Shown here: one piece after another, positions 53,479-58,092 of the stretch
How the letters are laid out: each line of letters begins with the position of its first letter
Numbering within the stretch: the first letter of the stretch is position 1
Assembly: GCF_000017505.1 (NCBI RefSeq)
Contig: NC_009675.1
Coordinates: 2,728,001 to 2,792,000 of the forward strand
From: Anaeromyxobacter sp. Fw109-5
GTDB taxonomy: Bacteria; Myxococcota; Myxococcia; Myxococcales; Anaeromyxobacteraceae
DNA: 64,000 nt
Direction: 5' to 3'
The notes under the pieces: generated by a model
The model's database searches: none
What the model saw: the letters and a program-made list of their open reading frames with translations, nothing else
What the model was told of the DNA's origin: nothing
Translations under genes and position numbers: made by a program

Positions 53479-54114
53479 CTATCGCTCGTCCCGCCGGCGC
53501 GCGCCGGCCCTGCGCGCCGCGTCGGAGAGCACCTCGTAGGGCTGGCAGCCCACGACGCGCGTCACCGGCCGCGCCCCTGCCGCCGGGGCGAAGTCGAAGG
53601 TGGGCACCCCCGTGACCCCCGCCTCGCGCGCCGCGCGCCGCGCCGCGTCCACCCGGGAGAGCGCCCCGGGATCGTCCGCCGCCGCGAGCGCCGCGCCCGG
53701 CTCGAGCCCCACCGCCCGGGCCACCTGCGCGAGGTCCTCGTCGCGGGACAGATCGCGCCCCTCCCGCCAGTAGGCGTCGAAGGCCGCGGCCCGGAATCGA
53801 TCGAGCTTCCCGGCGTCCCGGGCGTGCTGCGCGACGGCGAGCGCCCGGCGCGTGCTGGCGAGCCGCTCCGGGTTGCGCAGGTCGCGGATGCCGAAGCGGG
53901 CGGCGAAGCTCTTCACGTAGCCCAGCATGGCCTCGGGATCGGGCAGGTAGGACGCGAGCGGGACGCCGGCGCGCGGCGTCTCGGGGTGCAGCTCGTAGCC
54001 GACCCAGTCGATCTCGATGTCGTACTCCGCCTGCAGCCTGACCAGGCTGCTCCGCTCCGCGACGAAGCAGAACGGTCAGACGAAGTCGGAGAAGAGCCGC
54101 ACGATCGCGCCCAT
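53479..54114 (-). CDS. DsbA/FrnE-like thiol oxidoreductase, probable selenoprotein (in-frame UGA at the active site)
   Basis: 211 residues if UGA at 54078-54076 is read as selenocysteine (residue 13). The active site is then FV-U-PFC, where cysteine homologues have CPFC, with Cys16 as the resolving thiol. Sequence on both sides stays in one frame: MGAIVRLFSDFV before, PFCFVAERSSLVRLQAEYDI after, continuing through ELHPETP and the late cis-proline loop GVTGVPTFDF. A hairpin with a GGUC loop starts 25 bases after the UGA. A conventional call would begin at ATG 53928 and miss the active site. It is probably a cytoplasmic disulfide oxidoreductase. Sequencing error or a pseudogene remain possible. 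Confidence 0.82.
54033..54050 (-). promoter_or_regulatory. Candidate bacterial SECIS hairpin
   Basis: In the mRNA GCAGCCU and AGGCUGC form a perfect 7-base-pair stem with loop GGUC. Thirty-two bases separate the UGA from the loop, and the loop begins with GG, both within the usual bacterial SECIS limits as I remember them. It lies inside the coding sequence, as bacterial elements do. Confidence 0.6.
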
Positions 54115-54214
54115 GGTTCGGGCGTGTAACGGGGACGGGCGGCGGACTCCACTCCCGGCGCGGGTACGGCGGGGCGCGGCGCGCGGGCGCGCGCCGTGAT
54201 AGATCGGGCAGCCC

Positions 54215-54832
54215 GTGCCCGCCCACCCCGCGCGCTGCCCGCGCTGCCGCTTCCCGCCCGAGTTCTGCCTCTGCCCCGCCATCCCCCGGCTCGCGGCGCC
54301 CTTCCGGCTCGTGGTGGTGCGCCACGCGAGCGAGCGCGAGCGCATGTCGAACACGGCGCGCTGGGCCGCCCTGGCGCTGGAGGGGGCGGAGATCCTCGAG
54401 CACGCGCTGCCCGGCGTCCCGCTCGACGAGACGCTGCTGCGGGCGCCCGGCGCGGTGGTGCTCTTCCCCTCCCCGCGCGCCGAGGACGCGGCGGTCCCCG
54501 CGTCGACGCCCCCTGTCCTCGTCGTCCCGGACGGCACGTGGACCCAGGCGCGTCGCATGATGCAGCGCCTCCCCGCGCTCCAGCGGCTCCCGCGCCTGTC
54601 GCTCCCGGGCCCGCCCGCCGGGCTGAGGCTCCGCCGCCCGCCGCGGCCCGAGGGCATGTCCACCCTCGAGGCCGTCGCCGGCGCCCTCGCGGCGTTCGGC
54701 GCGGGCGCCGCGGCGGAGCGCCTGCTCGGGCTGCACGACGAGGGCGTGGAGCGCGTGCTGCGCCTCAAGGGGATGTGGGACGACGAGTCGGCCGCGGCCG
54801 TGGCCCGGCGCCGGGCGCTCGCGGCGCCCTAG
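54215..54832 (+). CDS. DTW-domain protein (tRNA-uridine aminocarboxypropyltransferase-like)
   Basis: 205 residues. N-terminal Cys cluster (CPRCRFPPEFCLC), the segment RHASERERMSNTARWAALAL, the signature DGTWTQARRM, and a C-terminal helical half. DTW proteins such as TapT/TuaA transfer an aminocarboxypropyl group from AdoMet to tRNA uridine, giving acp3U. GTG 54215 is the start. The following gene, 12 bases downstream, also encodes tRNA modification enzymes, which supports a tRNA role. It is divergent from the DsbA-like gene. Confidence 0.87.
   Translation: MPAHPARCPRCRFPPEFCLCPAIPRLAAPFRLVVVRHASERERMSNTARWAALALEGAEILEHALPGVPLDETLLRAPGAVVLFPSPRAEDAAVPASTPPVLVVPDGTWTQARRMMQRLPALQRLPRLSLPGPPAGLRLRRPPRPEGMSTLEAVAGALAAFGAGAAAERLLGLHDEGVERVLRLKGMWDDESAAAVARRRALAAP

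Positions 54833-58092
<3,260 letters not shown>

Follow-up and report, generated by a model that had tools for sequence, protein, structure and literature searches.

Anaeromyxobacter is a soil bacterium. In the window, a stretch of 64,000 nucleotides from Anaeromyxobacter sp. Fw109-5, the reverse-strand frame running from 54114 to 53479 comprises 211 codons, and its sole interruption is a TGA at 54078-54076. When this UGA is taken as a residue, the protein starts with MGAIVRLFSDFV-U-PFCFVAERSSLVRL, and the UGA occupies the position of the first active-site cysteine of a DsbA/FrnE-type protein, giving the motif UPFC. The features of the locus are:

53479..54114, reverse strand: coding sequence of the predicted DsbA/FrnE-like selenoprotein, 211 amino acids (ATG at 54114-54112, TAG at 53481-53479)
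54076..54078, reverse strand: in-frame UGA, predicted to be read as Sec13 (first residue of UPFC); TGA or TGC/TGT in all homologues examined
54067..54069, reverse strand: putative resolving Cys16 of the UPFC motif; an invariant column in alignment A1
54033..54050, reverse strand: predicted SECIS hairpin of 18 nt with a 7-bp stem and a GGUC loop (GCAGCCU-GGUC-AGGCUGC)
53479..53928, reverse strand: truncated table-11 ORF of 149 amino acids with its ATG at 53928, the frame left under the standard code
53602..53610, reverse strand: Gly169-Val170-Pro171, the loop bearing the expected cis-Pro; P171 is invariant in alignment A1
53545..53547, reverse strand: Cys190 in a GCQPY motif, the third cysteine position; common in Sec forms but not universal

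The original prediction had placed the UGA at the first cysteine of a CPFC motif with an open frame on either side, and had argued that gene callers start at 53928 and lose the active site. Re-reading the sequence agrees with the former, and all the coordinates given earlier proved correct. The latter was borne out by the recovery of the 149-aa ORF (53928-53479), which is the longest table-11 ORF remaining in the frame and does not contain the active site. Automatic gene callers thus likely cut this selenoprotein gene short. This ORF is exactly what the standard code leaves in frame, as would be expected if the UGA were a plain stop and the 149-aa protein from the ATG at 53928 were the sole product. 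However, such a product would begin only after the first beta strand and first helix and would be devoid of the entire redox motif, and conservation is among the highest in the N-terminal 62 residues, which include the active site. We therefore regard the plain-stop explanation as improbable in the extreme. Conservation of the protein extends to either side of the UGA, across the genomes of the order and likewise in alignment A1.

The assignment to the DsbA/FrnE-like proteins that had been made from the sequence was confirmed by domain and structure searches. The PF01323 (DSBA) profile matches residues 5-199 (E 1.9e-29, 103 bits against a cut-off of 25.6), and the AlphaFold2 model of the 211-aa protein has a mean pLDDT of 95.9 and a pTM of 0.91. 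Residue 13 immediately precedes the first helix of the model, as in DsbA, and P171 is presumably the expected cis-Pro facing the active site, as known for thioredoxin folds. The model has a DsbA-like thioredoxin fold carrying a helical insert. Its best PDB match is Deinococcus radiodurans FrnE (Foldseek E 1.4e-12, TM 0.83); the other closest solved structure is Streptomyces coelicolor SCO1869, and the next matches are YjbH, kappa-class glutathione transferases, and HCCA isomerases. The profile of the Rcas_1661 (DsbG-like) seleno-lipoprotein family, NF041057, gave only 23.7 bits, below its curated cut-off of 190. Besides Sec13, the only cysteines of the protein are Cys16 and Cys190. The 211-aa sequence shows no obvious signal peptide, the beta strand of the fold beginning already at residue 3. 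The flanking genes point to no pathway: they are a convergent gene for a chemotaxis receptor, a divergent gene for a DTW protein, and an ORF containing a queuine tRNA-ribosyltransferase (TGT) domain. In the latter ORF (54845-57025, forward strand), the TGT domain is connected through a low-complexity linker rich in Thr and Pro to a SAM-dependent methyltransferase domain of the kind present in MnmC (PF05430), and the ORF is possibly a fusion of 2 tRNA-modification enzymes.

To assess the UGA across genomes, we surveyed the 145 genomes of the order, 110 of which have a homologue. Each of the 8 congeners with a match has the active-site UGA; 2 of these 8 loci carry one extra stop, located at the C-terminal end. 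Among 151 homologous loci, a number that includes some duplicates (one gene fetched twice), the active-site codon is TGA in 122, TGC in 19, and TGT in 10, with no other codon, so that the alignment of homologues proposed in the original prediction returned only UGA or a Cys codon at this position. TGC and TGA differ by one base, and a sequencing error or a pseudogene, in which an ancestral TGC became TGA and the full protein is no longer made, could in principle produce such a frame. This explanation is refuted by the presence of the same UGA in many independent genomes, namely the 8 matching congeners as well as other families and orders, with an open frame on both sides; the synonymous constraint on the codons under the hairpin, described below, also argues against it, and we accord it very little probability.

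The 7-bp hairpin with a GGUC loop that had been predicted 25 bases past the UGA was located at 54050-54033, with 25 nt between the UGA and the stem and 32 nt between the UGA and the loop. The bSECIS rules (PMC13188914) call for a loop of 3-9 nt, a stem of 4-16 bp, a UGA distance of 16-37 nt, a G within the first 2 loop positions, and an MFE of at most -7.5 kcal/mol, and the hairpin agrees with this model (GGUC loop, 7 bp, 32 nt, -11.3 kcal/mol). To estimate how often such a structure arises by chance, synonymous codons were resampled: a stem of at least 7 bp appeared anywhere in the SECIS range in 7.5% of the resamplings, and at the exact place of the hairpin in 120 of 200,000. Because the DNA is G+C-rich and 7.5% of the resamplings give a comparable stem, the hairpin alone is weak evidence, and we rejected it as proof on its own. 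An Rfam search of 53900-54250 returned no relevant match. A second stem, 9 bp long here, directly follows the UGA; it was left out of the SECIS element because it is variable or lost among homologues.

Comparison of the homologues was more informative. GGTC is found at the loop position in all 27 distinct UPFC/UPYC Sec homologues; the stem has 7 bp in 22 of these genes and at least 5 bp in 26, and 24 of them comply with the bSECIS energy rule. In contrast, this hairpin is missing at that position from every one of the 22 Cys homologues that carry a PFC or PYC motif. Codons +11, +12, and +13 past the UGA are CTG, GTC, and AGG in 31 of 31 UGA genes, although AGG accounts for 4% of the remaining Arg codons in the same genes. 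The mean frequency of the top synonymous codon is 0.92 under the hairpin versus 0.60 at 46 other conserved 4- or 6-fold codons. The fixed synonymous codons, together with the contrast in hairpins between the Cys and UGA forms, indicate that selection acts on the RNA sequence itself as well as on the protein, and does so only in the genes with UGA at this position. Changes in the stem are mostly one-sided (C-G to U-G, G-C to G-U, A-U to G-U) and double changes are almost nil; since the stem is nearly invariant, covariation gives no proof of structure. Altogether, it is the conservation across genomes, more than the hairpin alone, that makes the selenoprotein case. Two further groups of sequences were noted in the survey. 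A sister subgroup with the motif UPWC (L061-L096 and L120-L179), present in Myxococcaceae and in numerous Gammaproteobacteria, shares the position of the UGA but has very different hairpins, and 26 of its 71 distinct sequences pass the -7.5 kcal/mol rule as coded here. In addition, a contig of a Chloroflexi MAG (L104) bears a UPFC gene with a nearly identical GGUC hairpin and a protein 50-53% identical, reflecting either horizontal transfer or a mis-binned contig.

The selenocysteine machinery was searched for in the genome, a single contig of 5,277,990 bases. A tRNA-Sec with a UCA anticodon was detected (75 bits, cut-off 47; ARAGORN concurs), as were selB (325 bits, cut-off 242), selA (545 bits, cut-off 268), and selD (397 bits, cut-off 125). 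All 4 genes whose search had been proposed are hence present above their curated cut-offs, including selB and selC, the absence of which had been named as counting against a selenoprotein. Read-through of the UGA mainly by a near-cognate tRNA (Trp or Cys) rather than by Sec-tRNA would be compatible with the sequence of the gene taken alone, but it accounts neither for the full Sec machinery in the genome nor for a SECIS-like hairpin that is tied to the UGA forms and missing from the Cys forms, and we consider it highly improbable. The initial selenoprotein reading is thus supported by the machinery genes, by homologues having only UGA or Cys at this codon, and by the fit to the bSECIS rules. 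Within the order, selA occurs in 67 of the 68 genomes with the UGA form, the exception being an assembly of 87% completeness. Because selA is also present in most Cys-bearing genomes, the association between selA and UGA is weak though consistent (p 0.011, a modest value from a statistic that ignores relatedness). One genome (G076, locus L035) has lost selA, carries TGT (Cys) at the active site, and lacks the GGUC hairpin, and its congeners G077-G079 have Cys at the active site and retain selA; these 4 genomes likely form a Sec-to-Cys conversion series. The selD gene itself (L056, G000:C1:4028582-4029508, outside the window) contains an in-frame UGA (SHGAG-U-ACK) with hairpins downstream of it, which makes the selenophosphate synthetase of this genome a predicted selenoprotein too.

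We therefore propose, with a probability of about 0.95, that the product of the gene is a cytosolic thiol-disulfide oxidoreductase belonging to the DsbA/FrnE family, with a catalytic Sec13 (U13-P-F-C16), and that it is translated only through reading of the UGA by SelB. The ribosome would pause at the UGA at 54078-54076, SelB carrying Sec-tRNA-Sec would bind the GGUC hairpin downstream, and insertion of Sec would allow translation to continue to the TAG. In the protein, the Sec/Cys pair may alternate between selenenylsulfide and reduced forms, reducing or isomerising disulfides. The UGA, hairpin, conservation, machinery genes, and predicted fold were observed or computed; the insertion of selenium, the redox direction, the substrate, and the cytosolic location are inferred. 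By analogy, the chemistry is likely of the thiol-disulfide kind of D. radiodurans FrnE (drFrnE), with the selenolate as the probable nucleophile.

drFrnE (DR_0659; PDB 5CNW), reported to be a cytoplasmic disulfide reductase/isomerase linked to tolerance to cadmium, diamide, and oxidative stress (PMC8945050), shares with this protein the fold, the position of the active site, and the predicted cytosolic location. It is longer, the 2 proteins being 26% identical in the structural alignment, and carries out disulfide reduction and isomerisation with 2 cysteines, whereas a Sec/Cys pair is proposed here. Moreover, the C-terminal CxxxxC regenerating motif of drFrnE is absent from the 211-aa sequence, as is also the case in some FrnE proteins (PMC8945050). 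That the UPFC gene with its GGUC SECIS is a unit transferred between lineages, as the hairpin in the Chloroflexi contig L104 would suggest, and that Cys190 is a third redox centre next to the Sec/Cys pair, giving the subgroup a regeneration route other than that of drFrnE, is a speculative combination that we think improbable.

This gene adds to the redox enzymes whose active site would be lost to a standard gene caller. UGA with a hairpin versus Cys without one, within a single order, offers a natural contrast usable for tests of SECIS function; general knowledge of selenoproteins is left unchanged. In 2 genomes of the survey (G013 and G014), which we take to be strains of Anaeromyxobacter dehalogenans, a single DSBA-family (PF01323) match contains an in-frame TGA, namely the orthologue of the gene described here, 63-64% identical, with the same hairpin, and from a species different from the source of the window. 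Zhang et al. (2006, PMC1794560) reported 11 selenoproteins in A. dehalogenans, including a DsbA-like one, which is almost surely this orthologue. At the family level, DsbA-like selenoproteins (COG2761/PF01323, UxxC) were described in 2005 in Sargasso Sea data (PMC1088965) and in 2008 as 'DsbA 1' in the Global Ocean Sampling (PMC2398784), and a 2016 study counted 45 such proteins in 41 organisms (PMC5029168). Since both the family and an instance from the genus were already published, the finding is a correct rediscovery. The gene resembles this family in its PF01323 domain, its UxxC motif (here UPFC), the bacterial SECIS past the UGA, and the existence of Cys homologues; whereas the gammaproteobacterial and distant Myxococcaceae members have UPWC and other hairpins, it belongs to a UPFC subgroup with a GGUC hairpin of its own.
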